From Myxococcales bacterium (GTDB taxonomy: Bacteria > Myxococcota > Myxococcia > Myxococcales > Anaeromyxobacteraceae), in contig JAJZQX010000013.1 in assembly GCA_021806645.1 (NCBI GenBank), forward strand, positions 62,001 through 126,000: DNA of 64,000 nucleotides, in the 5' to 3' direction. The position numbers were made by a program, and so were the translations under genes. Below the pieces are notes generated by a model. That model saw only the letters and a program-made list of their open reading frames with translations, did no database searches and was not told the origin of the DNA. Below, one piece after another: positions 48,546 through 59,051 of the stretch. Position 1 is the first letter of the stretch; each line of letters starts with the position of its first letter.

Positions 48546-49889
48546 CTACTGGGTCCAGTCACCCGTGGCGGTGTCGAAGTCGTCCACGAACTGGAGGCCG
48601 GCGGGCAGTGCGAGGGAGTTGTTGACGAAGGCCAGGATGGTCGACCGCGTCCACGAGCTGCCCGGCGGAGCGCCGGTGGAGACGAAGATCGCGGTGCTGG
48701 TGCGTCCCGCGGGGATGGCGAGCGCCACGCTGGTCGGCGGCGTGGACGGGAAGTAGTTGGCCCCGCCGCTGGTCCAGGCCGTGGCGCCGTTGAGCGCGAC
48801 GCTGGCCCACTCCCCCCAGGGCCCATTCGCGCTCAGGCGCAGTACCGGCGTCCAGGTGATGGGCGCCGCGGTGTCGTTGCGGATCCTGAAGAGCGCGGTC
48901 ACCACCTTGCCGTTGGCCGGTGAGTACCAGGTGAAGGTCTCGGCATGCACCAGGGCGTTGGTGCCCGCATAGCCCTTGCGGTTGTAGAGCGTGCGCAGCA
49001 CCTCCTTGTCGGCGCTCAGCTGTGAGGCGATGGCTCCGCCGTCGGTCCAGGCGCTCGGCGCGATGCCGCCGAACAGCGAGGGGTCGTTTCCCGCCATCCA
49101 GCCGGAGGCCTCGTCGTAGGTGTTGAAGACGGCGTACCGGTAGGTGGCCAGCTGTGGGATCACCAGCGTCCTGGGAGACCAGGCGCTGGCGGCCGACGAG
49201 TAGGCCAGGACCTGTCCGTCGGCAGGCGTGGTGGCGGCGACCGGGCTCCCCTGCAGCGCGGTGACGGTGTTGGCGACCGGCGACCCGGTCACGTCACCCG
49301 CGAGATCGGCCGCCGCGAGAGAGACCGTGCCGCCGAGCGACACCAGGCCGCCGCCGGTGAGCCCGCTGCCCGCGCTCACCGTGACGCCGCTGCTCGACAG
49401 CATGTCGTTGGTGACTCCGCCCGCTGCGATCGAGATCGTCCCGGTGGTGGAGATGGGGCCGCCGGTGAGGCCCGCGCCGGTCTCGAGCAGGACGATGGAG
49501 CCGAGGCCTGCCGGCCCCTGCAGCCCGGTGTCTCCCTTGAGCCCCTGGGGACCCTGGGCGCCGGTGGCCCCGACCGAAGCGACCAGTTGCCAGTCGGTGT
49601 TGGGCGGCTCCAGCCCGAGCACCGGCGTGTTCACGGCGACGTAGGACGAGCCCAGGTGATCCACCGCGTCGTCGATCTGGTAGCGGGTTATGGCGCTCCA
49701 GCCACCGGCCCAGTTCGCGCCGCGGGAACCCTGCGGACCGGCCGGACCCTGCGGGCCGGTGGCCCCGGGGAGTCCCTGGGCGCCGGCGACCCCCTGGGGT
49801 CCCGGGGTCCCGGTGGCTCCCGGGGTCCCCTCCTGGCCAGCGCAGGCGGTGACGGCTGCGAAGAGCGCGACAAGCACGAGGCGTCTCAT
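48546..49889 (-). CDS. collagen-like repeat lipoprotein
   Basis: The 447-residue product has a lipoprotein signal ending at AVTAC (C16) and then collagen-like Gly-x-y repeats in two blocks: about 13 triplets at residues 18-60 and a shorter block near 125-150. In between are non-collagen segments (YQIDDAVDHLGSSYVAVN), and the C-terminal 250 residues form a beta-rich domain. Such proteins often form trimeric stalks at the cell surface. I chose ATG 49889 because AAGGGGGA lies just upstream and the signal starts there. It converges on the molybdopterin gene, nine bases apart. Confidence 0.85.
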   Translation of the reverse strand: MRRLVLVALFAAVTACAGQEGTPGATGTPGPQGVAGAQGLPGATGPQGPAGPQGSRGANWAGGWSAITRYQIDDAVDHLGSSYVAVNTPVLGLEPPNTDWQLVASVGATGAQGPQGLKGDTGLQGPAGLGSIVLLETGAGLTGGPISTTGTISIAAGGVTNDMLSSSGVTVSAGSGLTGGGLVSLGGTVSLAAADLAGDVTGSPVANTVTALQGSPVAATTPADGQVLAYSSAASAWSPRTLVIPQLATYRYAVFNTYDEASGWMAGNDPSLFGGIAPSAWTDGGAIASQLSADKEVLRTLYNRKGYAGTNALVHAETFTWYSPANGKVVTALFRIRNDTAAPITWTPVLRLSANGPWGEWASVALNGATAWTSGGANYFPSTPPTSVALAIPAGRTSTAIFVSTGAPPGSSWTRSTILAFVNNSLALPAGLQFVDDFDTATGDWTQ

Positions 49890-50035
49890 GGGATCCCCCT
49901 TGATCCGAGGCGAGCGAAGTCGGATTGCGACCGGTAGCAGGCGTCGCAGGCGAGCGGAAGACCACGGGCATGGTACGGGCCACGGATCACATCCACGCAC
50001 AGCGAAGGCGCTGCACTCCGTCCCGGGGCTTCCGC

Positions 50036-50810: not shown

Positions 50811-52217
50811 ATGAACGACTATCGATACGACAACCGGACGGTCCAGGGCTTCATCCTCTCGGCCATCGCCTGGGGTGTCGTGGGGATCCTGGTCGGACTC
50901 CTCATCTCCATCCAGCTCTGGGCCCCGGCGGCCAACTTCGCGCCGTACCTCACCTACGGCCGGCTCCGCCCGGTCCACACCAACGGCCTGGCCTTCGGGC
51001 TCGGCGCCGGCGTGATCTTCGGGCTCTCCTACTACATCGTGATGCGGCTCAGCGGCCGCCCGCTGGTCTTCCCCCGGCTGGCGCGGGTGCAGCTCTGGAT
51101 CTTCAACGTGGCCATCGCCGCGGCGGCGGTATCGCTGATGATGGGCTACACCCAGTCGAACGAGTACGCCGAGCTGGAGTGGCCGCTCGACATCGGCGTG
51201 GTCATCCTCTGGGTGATGTTCGCGGTCAACGTCTTCGCCACCATCTCGAAGCGCAAGGACGAGCAGATGTACGTGTCGCTCTGGTACATCATCGCCACCG
51301 TCGTCGCCATCGCCGTCCTCTACGTCGTCAACAACCTCTCCATCCCGGCCGGCTGGATGAAGAGCTACCACCTCTTCGCCGGCGTGAACTCGGCCAACGT
51401 GGAGTGGTGGTACGGCCACAACGCCGTGGGCTTCCTCTTCACCACGCCGTTCCTGGCGATGTTCTTCTACTTCATGCCCAAGGCGCTGAACCTGCCCCTC
51501 TACAGCCACCGGCTCTCCATCCTGGCCTTCTGGTCGCTGGTCTTCGGCTACCTCTGGACCGGCGCCCACCACCTGGTCTACACGCCGCTGCCCGACTGGC
51601 TCCAGACGCTGGGCATCGTCTTCACGCTCTTCCTGATCGCGCCCTCGTGGAGCTCGGTGATCAACGGCTACTACACGGTGGGTGCGGACTGGTCGAAGAT
51701 GAAGACCAACTACCTCACCAAGTTCTTCATCATGGCCATCACCTTCTACGGCCTGCAGACGGTGCAGGGGCCGACCCAGGGGCTCCGCGTCGTCTCGCAG
51801 CTCATCCACTACACCGACTGGGTGCCGGGCCACGTGCACATGGGGACCATGGGCTGGGTGACGCTGACCGCCTGCGCCTCCATCTACTACGTGATCCCGA
51901 AGATCAACGGCACCGCCATCTACTCGGAGAGGATCGCCAACATCCACTTCTGGCTGGTGATGGTCGGCCAGCTGCTCTTCTCGGTGACCATGTGGATCAC
52001 CGGCATACAGCAGGGCGCCATGTGGAAGGCCACCAACGCCGACGGCACGCTCAAGTACACCTTCGTCGAGACCCTCACCAAGAACTACCCGTACTGGCAC
52101 ACCCGCACCCTGGCCGGGATCATCTTCACGGCCGGCATGCTCTTCTTCGTCTACAACGTCCTCATGACCATCCGGCAGGGGCGGGCCAGGGCGGCCGCCT
52201 CCCCGGCGGCGGCGTAG
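50811..52217 (+). CDS. ccoN: cbb3-type cytochrome c oxidase subunit I (CcoN)
   Basis: Catalytic, haem-copper subunit that reduces oxygen and pumps protons, 468 residues with about twelve transmembrane helices. Expected haem and copper ligands are visible: VHTNG (low-spin haem), EWWYGHNAVGF, GAHH and HVHMGTMG. Its length is as usual. GGGAGG lies about eleven bases before ATG 50811. It begins a nine-gene operon for the oxidase and its assembly. A high-affinity oxidase fits a bacterium living at low oxygen. Confidence 0.97.
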   Translation: MNDYRYDNRTVQGFILSAIAWGVVGILVGLLISIQLWAPAANFAPYLTYGRLRPVHTNGLAFGLGAGVIFGLSYYIVMRLSGRPLVFPRLARVQLWIFNVAIAAAAVSLMMGYTQSNEYAELEWPLDIGVVILWVMFAVNVFATISKRKDEQMYVSLWYIIATVVAIAVLYVVNNLSIPAGWMKSYHLFAGVNSANVEWWYGHNAVGFLFTTPFLAMFFYFMPKALNLPLYSHRLSILAFWSLVFGYLWTGAHHLVYTPLPDWLQTLGIVFTLFLIAPSWSSVINGYYTVGADWSKMKTNYLTKFFIMAITFYGLQTVQGPTQGLRVVSQLIHYTDWVPGHVHMGTMGWVTLTACASIYYVIPKINGTAIYSERIANIHFWLVMVGQLLFSVTMWITGIQQGAMWKATNADGTLKYTFVETLTKNYPYWHTRTLAGIIFTAGMLFFVYNVLMTIRQGRARAAASPAAA

Positions 52218-52233: not shown

Positions 52234-53229
52234 ATGGCTGGCGAGATCTACAGGAAGCCGATCACCCTGGCGCTCATGGCCACCGTGGCCATCCTGGTCG
52301 GCTCGATCGTGACCATGGCCTACCCGATGCTGCGGGCCGACATGCACCCGAAGCTGGAGACGCTCAGGCCCTTCACGCCGCTGCAGCTGGCGGGGCGCGA
52401 CATCTACCAGCGCGAGGGCTGCGTGGGCTGCCACACCCAGACCATCCGGCCGCTGGCCAGCGAGGTGGCGCGCTACGGCGACTACTCCAAGGCCGGCGAG
52501 TTCGCCTACGACCACCCCTTCCTCTGGGGCTCGAAGCGGACCGGCCCGGACCTGGCGCGCGAGGGCGGGCTGCGCCCCGACGGCTGGCACTACCAGCACT
52601 ACGCCAACCCGCAGCAGATGGCCGCGAAGTCCAACATGCCGTCCTACGGCTGGCTCAAGGGGCGGCCGCTCGACCCGGTCGAGGTGGCGGCACACCTCAA
52701 CGCGCTCGGCATGGTCCACCCGGAGCTGAAGGCCGACCCGGCCGCGGTCAAGGCGGCCCTGGCCGGCAAGGACGAGCTCGACGCGCTGGTGGCCTACACC
52801 CAGCAACTCGGCCACGCGGTGCAGCGCCGGCAGGGTGGCAGCGCCAACCTCGACCTGGAGAACCCGCTGGCGCGCGACACCCAGGCCATCGTGGCCGGCA
52901 AGAAGCTCTTCACCGAGAACTGCGCCGCCTGCCACGGTGACGAGGCACAGGGGACCGACGGCGTCGCGCCGAGCCTCATCGACGATGTCTTCCTTGGCGC
53001 GAAGGGCGACCTGCCCGACGGCGCCTACTTCGCGATGATCGACGGCGGCTCCGACGCCAAGCCCATCGCCGGCCGCACGGGCGATCCGGGCGGCGGGATG
53101 GACGCCTACGGGAAGACGGGCCAGCTCAAGAAGGACGAGATCTGGTCGATCATCGCCTGGCTCCGGAACCAGAAGGGGCACGAAGCCGCCGAGGGACACG
53201 ACATGCCCGAGGCCGAGAAGAAGCCGTGA
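52234..53229 (+). CDS. ccoO: CcoO fused to a CcoP-like cytochrome c domain
   Basis: Electron-entry subunit of the cbb3 oxidase, 331 residues where CcoO alone is about 200. The first part is CcoO: a signal-anchor helix (11-30), haem site CVGCH (C63, C66, H67), WGSKRTGPDLAREGG and the axial Met in SNMPSYGWL (M135). A linker (about 185-215) leads to a second cytochrome c domain with CAACH (C230, C233, H234) and the axial Met in GGGMDAYG (M289). That domain resembles the CcoP haem domains. The usual two-haem CcoP gene is missing and a haem-free CcoP-like gene follows. The fusion would place both c-haems on one chain. Confidence 0.93.
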   Translation: MAGEIYRKPITLALMATVAILVGSIVTMAYPMLRADMHPKLETLRPFTPLQLAGRDIYQREGCVGCHTQTIRPLASEVARYGDYSKAGEFAYDHPFLWGSKRTGPDLAREGGLRPDGWHYQHYANPQQMAAKSNMPSYGWLKGRPLDPVEVAAHLNALGMVHPELKADPAAVKAALAGKDELDALVAYTQQLGHAVQRRQGGSANLDLENPLARDTQAIVAGKKLFTENCAACHGDEAQGTDGVAPSLIDDVFLGAKGDLPDGAYFAMIDGGSDAKPIAGRTGDPGGGMDAYGKTGQLKKDEIWSIIAWLRNQKGHEAAEGHDMPEAEKKP

Positions 53230-53243
53230 TGGGAGGGAACGCC

Positions 53244-53528
53244 ATGGAGAACGAACTTCCCGACACCGCCGAGGGGATGGAGCGCAAGGAGACGGCTCAC
53301 GCCGTCCCGACCGGGTGGCTCATCCTCTTCTTCGGCCTCATCGCCTGGGGCGCCTGGTACCTCTACGCGTACTCTCCGTGGAGCAGCGGCTGGACGCAAG
53401 AGGGGCAGCTGGCCGCCGCGCCGGTGGAGGTTGGCAGCAACATCTTCATGACCGTCCTCTTCACGGCCCTCCCGACCGCCGCGGCGATCGGGTTGTGGCT
53501 GCTGCAGCGCCCGGCTAAGAAGGGGTGA
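53244..53528 (+). CDS. CcoP-like membrane stub without haem site
   Basis: The 94-residue product has a cytoplasmic-side N-terminus (LPDTAEGMERKETAHAVPTGW) and two transmembrane helices (LILFFGLIAWGAWYLYAY and MTVLFTALPTAAAIGLWLL). The first helix and its flanks closely recall the CcoP N-terminus, but no CxxCH motif is present. The haem part has seemingly moved to the end of CcoO. GGGAGGG lies seven bases before ATG 53244, which decides the start over GTG 53226. It probably still packs with CcoN in the complex. Confidence 0.8.
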   Translation: MENELPDTAEGMERKETAHAVPTGWLILFFGLIAWGAWYLYAYSPWSSGWTQEGQLAAAPVEVGSNIFMTVLFTALPTAAAIGLWLLQRPAKKG

Positions 53529-53538
53529 GCGAGGAACG

Positions 53539-53679
53539 ATGGCGCCGGAAACCTTCTACCTGCTCTTTGGCATCACGCTCAGCGTGACCTTCGTCGGCAT
53601 CTGGATCTTCCTCTACTCCCGCAAGCGGCGCGATCACGTGGAGCAGGCGAAGTACAAGATGCTCGACGATGACGGGTAG
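53539..53679 (+). CDS. ccoQ: CcoQ-like small membrane subunit
   Basis: The 46-residue product has one transmembrane helix (FYLLFGITLSVTFVGIWIFLYS) followed by a basic stretch and KYKMLDDDG, a tail resembling that of CcoS. It sits in the CcoQ position of the operon and is too short for automatic calling. GAGGA lies about five bases before the start. The stop overlaps the ccoG start (ATGACGGGTAG). CcoQ stabilises the complex in other bacteria. Confidence 0.75.
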   Translation: MAPETFYLLFGITLSVTFVGIWIFLYSRKRRDHVEQAKYKMLDDDG

Positions 53680-54895
53680 CGGCTCCATCCAGCGGTACCG
53701 GCGCGCGGCAGGGGCGGCCCAGGCGGTCCTCTTCGTCGGGCTGCCCTTCGTCCAGGTGGGCGGCGGGAGCGCGCTCCGGTTCGACGTGCCGTCGCTCACG
53801 CTCCACGTCTTCGGCGCCGCCATCGGGGTCGGCGAGCTCTTCGTCACGCTGCCGGCGGTGGTCTTCCTCACCCTGGTGTTGCTGCTGGTGACCGTCGCCT
53901 TCGGGCGGGTCTGGTGCGGCTGGTCCTGCCCGCAGACGGTGCTCGGCGACCTGACCCGGCTGGTGCGGCCGTGGCCGGGCCGGGTGGGGCGCCCGTGGCG
54001 GCGGGCGGGCGGCTTCGCGCTCACCGCGCTGGTCTCGCTGGTGGCCGGCGCCGCCACCGTCTGGTACTTCGTCCCCCCGCTCGAGTTCCTCGCTGACCTG
54101 GCCGCGGGCCGGCTCGGGCCGGTCGCCGCCGGCGCCTGGGCGGTGCTGAGCCTGGTCCTCTTCCTCGACCTCGCCTTCGTGCGCGGCCGCTTCTGCGCCA
54201 CCGCCTGTCCCTACGCCAGGCTCCAGGGCGTCCTCTATGACGCCCACACGCTCACCGTCGCCCACGACGAGCGGCGCGACGCCGACTGCGTAGACTGCGG
54301 CGCCTGCGTCCGCTGCTGCCCCACCGGCATCGACATCCGCGACGGCGCCCAGATGGAGTGCATCGCCTGCGCCGAGTGCATCGACGCCTGCCGGCCCATC
54401 ATGCTCAAGCTGAAGCGCCAGCCGGACCTGATCGGCTACTTCTTCGGCGAGCCGGGCCGGCCGCGGCGGCTGGTGCGCCCGGCCACCGTCGGGCTGCTCC
54501 TCGCCACCCTGCTCTCGCTGGGCGCCACGGTGGCGGCGGCCCGCACCGTGGCCGGGACCGCGCTCGACCTGACGGTGGTGCCCGACAGCGGCTTCGCTCC
54601 GCGCCGCACCCCCGACGGCCGCACCCTCATGGCCTACGTGGTCTCGCTGGAGAACCGCACCAGGTCGCCACTCACGGTCCGGCTCTCGCTGGCCGCCGGG
54701 GGGCTGGAGATCTCGCTGCGGCCACCCCAGCTCGAGCTCCAGGCCGGCGAGCACCGCCGGCTGCGGGTGGTGGCCGAGTCTCGCGGCAGCGCGGGCCGGC
54801 GCGCCGCCACCTTCACCGCCGTCGCCGTGGCCCCCGGCGGCCGGACCGTCTCCCGCGCCAGCCCCGCCCTTCTCGTCGTCCAGGAGTCGCCATGA
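53669..54895 (+). CDS. ccoG: CcoG/RdxA-type membrane 4Fe-4S protein
   Basis: Membrane ferredoxin of cbb3 assembly, recently linked to copper reduction; 408 residues. It has several transmembrane helices, FGRVWCGWSCPQTVL, the CPYARLQG motif, then two clusters: CVDCGACVRCCP and CIACAECIDACRP. The C-terminal 130 residues form a beta-rich periplasmic FixG-type domain (VVPDSGFAPRRTPDGRT). Its start overlaps ccoQ and its stop overlaps the next start (ATGA). Confidence 0.95.
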   Translation: MTGSGSIQRYRRAAGAAQAVLFVGLPFVQVGGGSALRFDVPSLTLHVFGAAIGVGELFVTLPAVVFLTLVLLLVTVAFGRVWCGWSCPQTVLGDLTRLVRPWPGRVGRPWRRAGGFALTALVSLVAGAATVWYFVPPLEFLADLAAGRLGPVAAGAWAVLSLVLFLDLAFVRGRFCATACPYARLQGVLYDAHTLTVAHDERRDADCVDCGACVRCCPTGIDIRDGAQMECIACAECIDACRPIMLKLKRQPDLIGYFFGEPGRPRRLVRPATVGLLLATLLSLGATVAAARTVAGTALDLTVVPDSGFAPRRTPDGRTLMAYVVSLENRTRSPLTVRLSLAAGGLEISLRPPQLELQAGEHRRLRVVAESRGSAGRRAATFTAVAVAPGGRTVSRASPALLVVQESP

Positions 54896-55698
54896 AGCCG
54901 CTCATCGTCGTCGCCTCCATCGCCGCCATCGGCGCCGTGGTGGTCACCATCGCCGTCGGGTCGAGCCTCCGCGAGGAGACGGTGGTGAAGGACCCCTACG
55001 AGCACGGGCTGCACCACGACCAGGAGCGGAAGGCGCGCGAGAGGCTCGGCTGGCAGGCCCGCTTCGACCCCTCCGACCTGCGGCCCGGCGGCGGCGAGCT
55101 AGGCTTCACCCTGGTGGACAGGGCCGGCGCGCCGGTCGAGGGGGCCACGGTGCAGGTGGCGGTGACGCGGCCGGCCGGCCCTGGTGACGAGCGGCAGGCG
55201 ACGGCCCGGGCGCTGGGTGGAGGGCGTTACCGGGCGCCGGTCGGCTTCGCCGCGCCCGGCTTCTGGGACGTGCGGCTCGACGCCGTCCGCGGCGGCGACA
55301 CCGTGGGGCTGACGCAGCAGGTGCGCGTCGAGGCGGGCGAGGGGGTGCCGTGCCGGCTCGCGGCGGCGCCGTGCGCGGCCGACGCCGGCGGGCTGAAGCT
55401 GACGCTCGACCTCGGCCGCGTCCTCACCACCATGAAGGAGCTGCCGATCACCGTCACGGTGTCGCGGGGAGGCGCGCCGCTCGACGGCGCGGCCGTCGAG
55501 GTGGCCTTCGCCATGAAGGAGATGAACATGGGGGAGAACCGGGTCCTGCTCACCGCCGCCGGCCCGGGGCGCCATGCCGGCAAGGGGGTGCTGGTCCGCT
55601 GTCACAGCGGCCTGAAGGACTGGATCGCCACCGTCACGGTCCGTCCCGCCGGCGGCGCGCCGGTGTCGGCCGCCTTCCCATTCACGGTGAGTGAGTGA
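54892..55698 (+). CDS. ccoH: FixH/CcoH-like protein with extra beta domain
   Basis: Membrane-anchored assembly factor, 268 residues where FixH is about 160. A single N-terminal helix (4-24) is followed by HGLHHDQERKARERLGWQARF, the FixH-like segment, and a beta-rich domain (GELGFTLVDRAGAPVEGATVQVAVTRP). A second repeat of the same type follows (LPITVTVSRGGAPLDGAAVEVAFAMKEMNMGEN, resembling YtkA-like domains). The Met-rich KEMNMGEN segment could bind copper. It overlaps both neighbours. Confidence 0.85.
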   Translation: MKPLIVVASIAAIGAVVVTIAVGSSLREETVVKDPYEHGLHHDQERKARERLGWQARFDPSDLRPGGGELGFTLVDRAGAPVEGATVQVAVTRPAGPGDERQATARALGGGRYRAPVGFAAPGFWDVRLDAVRGGDTVGLTQQVRVEAGEGVPCRLAAAPCAADAGGLKLTLDLGRVLTTMKELPITVTVSRGGAPLDGAAVEVAFAMKEMNMGENRVLLTAAGPGRHAGKGVLVRCHSGLKDWIATVTVRPAGGAPVSAAFPFTVSE

Positions 55699-56411
55699 GC
55701 CAGGCGGTCGCCACCGGCCTGGCGGCCCAGGTCGGGGCCAGCGCGGTCACCGGCCTGCTCATGGGCTTCTCGCACTGCCTCGGCATGTGCGGGCCGCTGG
55801 TGGCCTCCTTCGGCCTCTCGGCGCGGCCGGACCAGGTGACCGGCGCAGTGCCGGGCGCGGCGCGGGCGGCGGTGGGGCAACTCCCGTACCACCTCGGCCG
55901 CGTCACCACCTACGGCCTGGTGGGCGCGGTGATGGGGGCCACCGGCGCCTTCGTCAACGTGGCCGGCAGGCTGGCCGGCCTGGGAGAGATCATGGCGCTG
56001 CTGGCCGGCGCCCTCATGGTGGCGCTGGGGCTGGGCGCCGCGGGCCTCACCGACCTGCTTCGCCAGTTCGAGGCCACCGCCTCGCGCCGCCTCACGGCGC
56101 TGGTCCGGCCGCTGCTGCGGGGCGGCCCCTCCCGCCTCTACCCGCTCGGCCTGGCGCTCGGTCTCCTCCCCTGCGGCGTCTCCTGGACCATCTTCCTCGG
56201 CGCGGCCGCCTCGGGCGGGCCGGTGCCGGGGCTGCTCATGGCGCTTGCCTTCGGCCTCGGCACGGTTCCCGGCCTGCTGCTGGTCGGCGCCGCCGGCGCG
56301 CTGGTCGGGCAGCGGGCACGCGGGGCGCTGCGCCGCGCCGGGGGATTGGTGGTGGCGGCCCTCGGCCTCCTCTTCCTCCTGCGCGGCCTCGGCGTCCATG
56401 TCCCGATGTGA
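55695..56411 (+). CDS. TauE/SafE-like (SafE family) membrane protein in the cbb3 operon
   Basis: The 238-residue product has about six to seven transmembrane helices. It has the repeat GFSHCLGMCGPLVASFGL with a Met/Cys/His cluster, and later ALGLLPCGVSWTIFLGAAASGGPVPGLLMALAFGLGTVPGLLL, typical of the SafE/CcoA-adjacent family near cbb3 genes. Such proteins are linked to copper handling during oxidase assembly. GTG start overlaps the ccoH stop; 14-base overlap with ccoI. Confidence 0.85.
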   Translation: MSQAVATGLAAQVGASAVTGLLMGFSHCLGMCGPLVASFGLSARPDQVTGAVPGAARAAVGQLPYHLGRVTTYGLVGAVMGATGAFVNVAGRLAGLGEIMALLAGALMVALGLGAAGLTDLLRQFEATASRRLTALVRPLLRGGPSRLYPLGLALGLLPCGVSWTIFLGAAASGGPVPGLLMALAFGLGTVPGLLLVGAAGALVGQRARGALRRAGGLVVAALGLLFLLRGLGVHVPM

Positions 56412-58851
56412 CCACTGCCTCGCCAGCTTCCCCGACGGGGAGGCGGTGCTGGAGCGCGACGGCGAGGTCGAGCGGCGCTTCTGCTGCGCCGGCTGTCTCG
56501 GGGTCTGGCGGCTGGTGCGTGACGAGGGGCTGGGGCGCTTCTACGACGAGCGCCACTGGGACGCCGCGGGGTTGCCGCCCGCCGCGCGCCCCGGCGCCGC
56601 GCCGCTCACCGATCTCTCCGCCTACCGGCCGGTGGTGGCGACCGACGGCACCGCCGAGGTGGACGTGGCCATCGAAGGCATCCGCTGCGCCTCCTGCGTC
56701 TGGCTCAACGAGCGGGTGCTGCAGCGCACCCCCGGCGTCCTCGCCGCCCGCGTCAACTACGCCACCCACCGGGCCCGGATCCGCTACGCCCCCGCCGCCA
56801 TCGCGCTGCCGGCCGTGCTCTCGCGCGTGCAGGCGGCCGGCTACACGCCGCGCCCGTGGGTCGAGTCGGAGCAGGCGACCGCCCGCGACGAGGAGGTGCG
56901 CGACCTGCTGGTGCGGGTCGGCACCGCCTGGTTCCTCGCCTCGCAGCTGATGATCTACTCGGCGGCGCTCTACGCCGGCTACTTCCAGGGGATGGACCGG
57001 CCCACCCGCTCGCTGCTCGAGTGGCTCTCGATCGGCCTGGCCGCGCCGGTCCTCCTCTTCGCCGGCGCGCCGTTCTGGCGCTCCACGCTCGCCGGCCTGC
57101 GCCACGGCCGGTTCAACATGGACTCGCTGGTGGTGCTCGGCTCGGGCGCGGCGCTGGCCTACTCGGTCTGGCAGGCGCTGCGCGGCGGCGAGGTCTGGAG
57201 CGACACCGCCGCCATGATCCCGACCCTGGTGCTCACCGGCCGCTACGTGGAGGCGAGGGCGCGGCGAACCGCCTCCGAGGCGGTGGCCCGGCTGGCCACG
57301 CTCCGGCCGCGCGAGGCGCTCCTCGTCACGGTGGGTGAGGACGGAGCGCCGGTGCGCCAGCGCGTCCCGGTCGAGCAGGTCAAGGTGGGCGACCGGGTGG
57401 AGGTGCTGCCGGGCGAGCGGATCCCGCTGGACGGGCGGGTCCTGGAGGGGACCTCGGAGGCCGACGAGGCGCTGGTGACCGGCGAGTCGCGGCCCGTGAC
57501 CAAGGGGCCGGGCGCGCCGGTCATCGGCGGCGCGGTCAACCTGGCCGGGGCGCTCACCATCGAGGTGACGCGCGTCGGCGCCGACACGCTGCTGGCCGGG
57601 ATCATCCGCGCGGTGGAGGAGGCGCAAGGCGAGAAGCCGCGGCTGCAGGCGCTGGCCGACCGGGCGGTCGGCGTCTTCGTCCCGGCGGTGCTGCTGCTGG
57701 CCGTGGCCACGCTGGCCGGCCACCTCCTGTTCGGGGCGCCGCCGGAGCGGGCGCTCCTCAGCGCCATCGCCGTGGTGGTGATCGCCTGCCCCTGCGCCCT
57801 CGGGCTGGCCACGCCGGTGGCGGTGCTGCTGGCCACCGGGCTGGCCACCGCGCGCGGCATCCTGGTGAAGGGGGGCGACGCGCTGGAGGCGGCGGGGCGG
57901 GCCACCGAGGTGGTGCTCGACAAGACCGGCACGGTGACGCGCGGCCGGCCGGCGCTGCGGCGGATCGTCCCGCTGCGTGGCGGCGACGAGAGCGCGCTCC
58001 TGCGGCTGGCGGCGGCCGTGGAGCGGCGGAGCGAGCACCACGTCGGCCGGGCCGTGGTGGAGGCGGCACGGGCGCTGCCGGCGGCGCCGGAGCCTGCGGT
58101 GGAGGCGTTCCGGGTGGTGGCGGGGCGCGGCGTGGCGGCCACCGTGGGGGGCGCGCCGGTCCGGATCGGCAGCGCCGCCTTTCTCGCCGAGGAGGGCATG
58201 GTGGCCACCGCGGCCGGGCTGGCCCTGGCGGCGGCGCCCGAGGCCGAGGGCGACACGGTGGCCTGGCTGGCGATCGGCGGCCGGGCCGAGGCGCTGCTGG
58301 TGGTGGCCGATCCGATCCGCGAGGAGGCTCCCCGTGCGCTGGCGGCGCTGGCCCGGCTGGGGCTCACCGTCACCATAGTGAGCGGCGACGCCCGCACCAC
58401 CACGGCGGCGGTGGCGGCTCGGCTCGGCGTCGCCTTCGAGGCGGAGCGGACGCCCCAGCAGAAGCGCACGCTGGTGGCGGCGCGCCAGGCGGCCGGGGCG
58501 CGCGTGCTGGTGGTGGGCGACGGGATCAACGACGCCCCGGCGCTGACCCAGGCCGACGCCGGCGTGGCCATGGGGCGCGGCACCGACGTCACCATGGAGA
58601 GCGCCGACGCCGTGCTGGTGCGCGACGATCTCTCGCTGCTGCCCGACCTGATCCTCCTGGGGCGGCGGGCCACCGGCGTCATCAGGCAGAACGTCTTCTG
58701 GGCCTTCTTCTACAACGTGGTGGCCATCCCGCTGGCCGTGGCCGGCGCGCTCCACCCCATCGTCGGCGCCGCGGCCATGGCGGCCTCGAGCGCCATCGTG
58801 GTCACCAACTCGCTGCGGCTGCGGCGGACCTTCACTGGGAGGCGCGCATGA
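56398..58851 (+). CDS. ccoI: CcoI/FixI-type copper-exporting P1B ATPase
   Basis: Copper-transporting P-type ATPase that supplies or exports Cu for the oxidase, 817 residues. An extra N-terminal zinc/metal-finger (CDHC and CCAGC, residues 4-32) comes before the HMA domain with GIRCASCVW (near 98-101). The metal site is CPC (464-466, IACPCALGLATP), the phosphorylated Asp is D508 in DKTGT, and GDGINDAPAL is intact. The usual SEHP motif reads SEHH (547-548): His in place of the Pro. I chose ATG 56398; upstream reading is the SafE gene. It overlaps ccoS by four bases. Confidence 0.95.
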   Translation: MSRCDHCLASFPDGEAVLERDGEVERRFCCAGCLGVWRLVRDEGLGRFYDERHWDAAGLPPAARPGAAPLTDLSAYRPVVATDGTAEVDVAIEGIRCASCVWLNERVLQRTPGVLAARVNYATHRARIRYAPAAIALPAVLSRVQAAGYTPRPWVESEQATARDEEVRDLLVRVGTAWFLASQLMIYSAALYAGYFQGMDRPTRSLLEWLSIGLAAPVLLFAGAPFWRSTLAGLRHGRFNMDSLVVLGSGAALAYSVWQALRGGEVWSDTAAMIPTLVLTGRYVEARARRTASEAVARLATLRPREALLVTVGEDGAPVRQRVPVEQVKVGDRVEVLPGERIPLDGRVLEGTSEADEALVTGESRPVTKGPGAPVIGGAVNLAGALTIEVTRVGADTLLAGIIRAVEEAQGEKPRLQALADRAVGVFVPAVLLLAVATLAGHLLFGAPPERALLSAIAVVVIACPCALGLATPVAVLLATGLATARGILVKGGDALEAAGRATEVVLDKTGTVTRGRPALRRIVPLRGGDESALLRLAAAVERRSEHHVGRAVVEAARALPAAPEPAVEAFRVVAGRGVAATVGGAPVRIGSAAFLAEEGMVATAAGLALAAAPEAEGDTVAWLAIGGRAEALLVVADPIREEAPRALAALARLGLTVTIVSGDARTTTAAVAARLGVAFEAERTPQQKRTLVAARQAAGARVLVVGDGINDAPALTQADAGVAMGRGTDVTMESADAVLVRDDLSLLPDLILLGRRATGVIRQNVFWAFFYNVVAIPLAVAGALHPIVGAAAMAASSAIVVTNSLRLRRTFTGRRA

Positions 58852-59051
58852 TGCTCACCGGGCTCATCCTGCTCTCCCTGGCGCTCGGCCTGGCCGCCTG
58901 GCTCGGCTTCGTCTGGTCGGTCCGGAGCGGGCAGTACGACGATCCCGAGGGGCCGAAGTACCGGATGCTGGATGACGGGGAGGAGGCGGCGGAGCCGGAG
59001 CGGAAGGCGGGCGGGCCGCAGGAGCCGCCCATAGACCAGCCGAAGGCGTGA
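58848..59051 (+). CDS. ccoS: cbb3 assembly protein CcoS
   Basis: The 67-residue product has one N-terminal helix (LTGLILLSLALGLAAWLGFVW) followed by SVRSGQYDDPEGPKYRMLDDGEE, the CcoS signature. It has a Glu/Pro-rich tail longer than usual. CcoS is needed for cofactor insertion into cbb3. It overlaps ccoI by four bases (ATGATG) and ends the operon. Confidence 0.93.
   Translation: MMLTGLILLSLALGLAAWLGFVWSVRSGQYDDPEGPKYRMLDDGEEAAEPERKAGGPQEPPIDQPKA

Follow-up and report, generated by a model that had tools for sequence, protein, structure and literature searches.

A cbb3-type oxidase operon with a second cytochrome c domain on CcoO and a haemless CcoP stub

How electrons could enter a high-affinity cbb3 (C-type) oxygen reductase whose CcoO carries two c-type haem sites, and whose CcoP-like partner carries none, is the question raised by an operon in a 64,000-nucleotide stretch of DNA (the window). 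The source is a soil bacterium with a 4.14-Mb genome near Anaeromyxobacter, and its CcoO protein is 84% identical to that of an Anaeromyxobacter MAG. The first-pass annotation of 52234-53528, an interval that comprises both genes, ccoO and the stub, proposed that CcoP had been taken apart, its haem domain being fused to CcoO and its membrane part left behind, with two c-haems instead of three.

The operon and its two altered subunits

All genes of the operon are encoded on the forward strand. The catalytic subunit CcoN (468 aa, 50811-52217) matches COX1 PF00115 with 343 bits and aligns end to end with 3mk7_A (E 2e-139), its histidine motifs being retained; against TIGR00780 it scores 520 bits, below the cut-off of 583. 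The adjoining ccoO gene (52234-53229) encodes 331 aa with two CxxCH motifs. Residues 5-161 match FixO PF02433 (222 bits), residues 12-198 align to approximately the whole 203-aa chain of the solved CcoO 3mk7_B, and C63, C66 and H67 together with Met135 are invariant in 17 aligned homologues, so that the CcoO core with its c-haem and membrane anchor is present and the second haem domain is additional to it. This C-terminal domain (approximately residues 219-313, 52888-53172) matches Cytochrom_C PF00034 over residues 219-313 (50.7 bits) as well as PF13442. Its C230-x-x-C233-H234 motif and the candidate axial ligand Met289 are likewise invariant in 17 aligned homologues, which bears out the annotated second CxxCH with an axial Met of its own. 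In the predicted CcoO model the core superimposes on 3mk7_B with a Z of 14.1 and the C-terminal domain adopts a class-I cytochrome c fold; the model is poor at the core haem region (pLDDT below 50, residues 64-105).

The open frame that follows begins at 53226 and, best read from the ATG at 53244, encodes a 94 aa protein (53244-53528) with a FixP_N helix and a second hydrophobic stretch. It scores 29.1 bits against FixP_N PF14715 (cut-off 24.9) and is matched to CcoP N-termini with 98.6% probability by profile comparison (hhalign), which together rule out an unrelated small protein, and no CxxCH is found in its 94 aa. The gene thus encodes, as had been claimed, the N-terminal membrane part of CcoP without a haem. 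Sixteen residues are invariant over 14 aligned stubs from two phyla. Anaeromyxobacter-type stubs mostly have the second hydrophobic stretch at the C-terminal side, whereas the Nitrospirota stubs and that of locus L014 stop after the first.

Downstream lie genes for a 46 aa CcoQ-like protein (53539-53679; FixQ PF05545, E 2.3e-6, 27.9 bits, slightly below the cut-off of 29), a CcoG-like accessory ferredoxin (53669-54895; TIGR02745, 253 bits, below the cut-off of 316.7; Fer4_18 and FixG_C), a CcoH-like protein (54892-55698; FixH PF05751, 85.8 bits), a DsbD_2-family membrane protein (55695-56411; PF13386, 149 bits), a CcoI-like copper P-type ATPase (56380-58851; E1-E2 ATPase, HMA and ATPase-cat_bd domains, TIGR01511) and CcoS (58848-59051; FixS PF03597, 63.8 bits). 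An open frame on the reverse strand (48546-50000) starts like a lipoprotein and has collagen-like Gly-x-y repeats close to the N-terminus.

The operon encodes two c-haems, both on CcoO. A full two-haem CcoP elsewhere was sought across the whole genome, which is rated 99% complete, and was not found: nothing scores above the TIGR00782 CcoP cut-off; there is one FixP_N match, one true CcoN among four COX1-family matches, and ten PF00034 matches. One further COX1-family match, outside the window (G000:C24:5205-7042), is adjoined by two PF00034 matches. A plasmid search returned no match spanning 80% of the query. A sequencing error or an artificial joining of two genes is excluded, because the same frames occur in dozens of independently assembled genomes. 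Since the arrangement is kept across the family and in a second phylum, the rearranged haem arrangement is a real inherited variant.

Compared with the canonical cbb3 oxidase (3mk7), CcoN and the CcoO core align almost end to end and Q-, G-, H-, I- and S-like genes are present in the operon, but the canonical CcoP is a two-haem protein, whereas here the membrane part of CcoP stands alone and one haem domain is found on CcoO. Because CcoP is without its haem domain, the system is filed as a cbb3 variant and not as a canonical member. The CcoO-cytochrome c fusion is already catalogued as NCBIfam model NF011054/PRK14486 (putative bifunctional cbb3 subunit II/cytochrome c), with which CcoO shares its order of domains across the whole profile (420.6 bits, positions 2-294 of 294); however, the score lies below the curated cut-off of 447 and the model is silent on a haemless CcoP partner. 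In the open literature PRK14486 is named by one paper, as a table entry. A literature search for the stub, the re-partition or a linked loss of haem found none of them, and the survey of cbb3 evolution by Ducluzeau et al. 2008 may hold an earlier description.

Distribution and phylogeny of the fusion and the stub

The survey of the arrangement covered 193 Myxococcota genomes and a Nitrospirota-centred set of 198 genomes. The fusion is present in each of the 20 Anaeromyxobacteraceae genomes that have a CcoO match (in one it is read as two pieces at contig ends), and the stub adjoins the fused ccoO in every readable locus of the family; in four of the 20, Pfam FixP_N gives no match at E 0.001, and their stub was found by a purpose-built profile. 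In other Myxococcota the matches break off close to where the CcoO core ends, for the most part within long frames that hold both CcoN and CcoO, and CcoP is mono-haem in the loci where it was read. Among the surveyed loci, three CcoP-like frames (L035:6822-8060, L036:6822-8060 and L037:6815-8089) have one more CxxCH a long way upstream of FixP_N, which appears to reflect the addition of a cytochrome c domain at the N-terminus.

The Nitrospirota-centred set contains 17 loci with fusion and stub (L129-L145), eight with unfused CcoO and mono-haem CcoP, and one, L158, with a two-haem CcoP. At a further four Nitrospirota loci (L146, L147, L148 and L153) the fused CcoO is accompanied by a mono-haem CcoP, giving three c-haems in a different split. 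Where both genes are readable, 42 loci are fused with a haemless CcoP, four fused with a haem-bearing (mono-haem) CcoP, none unfused with a haemless CcoP and 60 unfused with a haem-bearing CcoP, bearing in mind that the loci are not independent and that the stub state amounts to only one change on the tree. Same-genome copies were taken out of these counts by hand, and the contig-end locus L028 and the fragment L068 were left out, the latter having been scored unfused/haemless by the script because its N-terminal half sits on another contig. A clade-wide co-occurrence of two-haem CcoO with loss of the haem-bearing CcoP, which had been named as the pattern that would support the annotation, is therefore found in Anaeromyxobacteraceae and many Nitrospirota. 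Of 296 genomes in Bacteroidetes/Chlorobi, at least 201 give a CcoO match, and none of the matches listed extends into the fused domain.

In a tree built on the CcoO core, the fusion-plus-stub rows fall into a single clade (support 100/99); one change explains the haemless-stub state and the fusion state takes three. Anaeromyxobacteraceae form a clade within the Nitrospirota rows at weaker support, and a topology test does not reject a separate clade of the stub-type rows from Nitrospirota (p-AU 0.18; this and all other p-values given here are indicative only, because several tests were picked after the trees were seen). The CcoO of other Myxococcota is distant from that of Anaeromyxobacteraceae. 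As the stub state is common to Anaeromyxobacteraceae and many Nitrospirota, and as the remaining Myxococcota lie far off on the tree, lateral transfer of the operon between Nitrospirota and the ancestor of Anaeromyxobacteraceae is likely.

The closest unfused relatives of the CcoO core are the mono-haem CcoP oxidases of Chlorobiaceae, some Bacteroidetes and Nitrospirota. These share with the variant a total of two c-haems and a CcoP N-terminus that the stub resembles, but they differ in that their second haem remains on CcoP. The claim of two c-haems instead of three thus holds in its first part and fails in its second: the operon does encode two, but since the CcoP of the nearest relatives is mono-haem, two c-haems are normal for this branch and are no loss from three, and the three-haem baseline does not apply to it. 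The genome paper of A. dehalogenans describes its cbb3 cluster as resembling that of green sulfur bacteria (PMC2330069). All CcoP proteins other than the tri-haem CcoP of Neisseria have been stated to be di-haem (PMC2924362), a statement that the mono-haem CcoP proteins predicted in this survey contradict. The Neisseria protein is itself a precedent, a cbb3 subunit extended by a cytochrome c domain through gene fusion, but there the haem, from cytochrome c5, joins CcoP, and CcoP loses nothing (PMC2924362).

Source of the fused domain and order of events

The annotation took the fused domain to be that of CcoP itself, moved onto CcoO by one recombination that left the membrane part behind. Such a transfer is possible but rather unlikely. 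It is consistent with the complete complementarity inside the stub clade and with the finding that, in genomes lacking the fusion, a mono-haem CcoP is what the fused domain matches best (G202 of Bacteroidetes, E 1.7e-12; G203 of Chlorobiaceae, E 8.9e-8), and a topology test does not reject placing the fused domains in one clade with every mono-haem CcoP domain (p-AU 0.09). On the other side, the haem-domain tree, from a short alignment of 102 columns, gives no resolved placement for the fused domain, and a topology in which the stub-clade domain joins the CcoP proteins of the four Nitrospirota intermediates is weakly rejected (p-AU 0.027). In profile comparisons, the fused domain of the intermediates scores highest, followed by small Nitrospirota cytochromes, the CcoP of the intermediates and other CcoP proteins; the small cytochromes, which are secreted, are also the best pairwise match for many fused domains. 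Moreover, the four intermediates hold the fused haem and a haem-bearing CcoP together. Tree, pairwise matches, profiles and fold do not separate CcoP from a soluble cytochrome as the source, and the derivation from CcoP put forward in the annotation is thus not upheld.

Two small secreted mono-haem cytochromes c are encoded at L024:6301-7007, between ccoG and ccoI of a Nitrospirota fusion-type cbb3 operon, and are candidates for the donor or for the origin of the fused domain. The same pair could be taken to suggest that a separately encoded cytochrome c stands in on the stub for the CcoP haem domain and that the enzyme keeps three c-haems, as could the several other PF00034 matches of the genome studied here, including a 127-aa frame. 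This is improbable, as the other inspected fusion-type (class-A) loci that cover the ccoG-ccoI stretch have no such gene and the relatives encode two c-haems in total. Least probable, by a small step, is that the stub is a decaying relic without function: it is without the CcoP haem domain and falls below the Pfam cut-off in some Anaeromyxobacteraceae, but the invariant residues shared by stubs of two phyla and the retention of the gene beside ccoO in readable loci argue against decay.

A gain on CcoO followed by a loss from CcoP fits best. The cytochrome c domain would have been acquired by CcoO in a lineage whose CcoP was already mono-haem; the haem domain of that CcoP would then have become dispensable and been lost. 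This order is suggested by the Nitrospirota that combine a fused CcoO with a mono-haem CcoP, which also demonstrate the viability of the intermediate state. They may nonetheless represent independent fusions and not true ancestors, because on the tree they do not form a sister group to the stub clade (a single clade of both fused classes is rejected, p-AU 0.0005) and joining the two sets of fused domains is also rejected (p-AU 0.009).

A putative oxidase with an altered electron-input arm

Overall, the operon probably encodes a variant cbb3 oxygen reductase, putatively functional, with an altered electron-input arm that would have arisen by gain on CcoO and then loss from CcoP, the operon being exchanged between Nitrospirota and the Anaeromyxobacteraceae ancestor. 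The intact CcoN and the downstream cbb3 assembly genes, judged from their sequences, count in favour of a functional oxidase. Electrons would pass from a periplasmic donor cytochrome to the haem of the fused C-terminal domain, from there to the core haem of CcoO, and on to haem b and the haem b3-CuB site of CcoN. The CcoP gene, reduced to its N-terminal membrane part, would yield a protein that most likely still packs against CcoN or aids assembly. It is somewhat favoured that the clade as a whole, in two phyla, has its input haem covalently built into CcoO and uses CcoP as a purely structural membrane subunit.

For annotation, counting ccoP genes by FixP_N, or haems by subunit name, is misleading in Anaeromyxobacteraceae and many Nitrospirota. 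For the biology of the enzyme, the arrangement means that evolution can part the haem-bearing portion of CcoP from its membrane portion, and it supplies naturally occurring cbb3 enzymes for testing what the CcoP membrane helix does in the absence of the CcoP haems. If the proposed arrangement is true, the membrane and redox roles of CcoP could be studied apart in natural enzymes.
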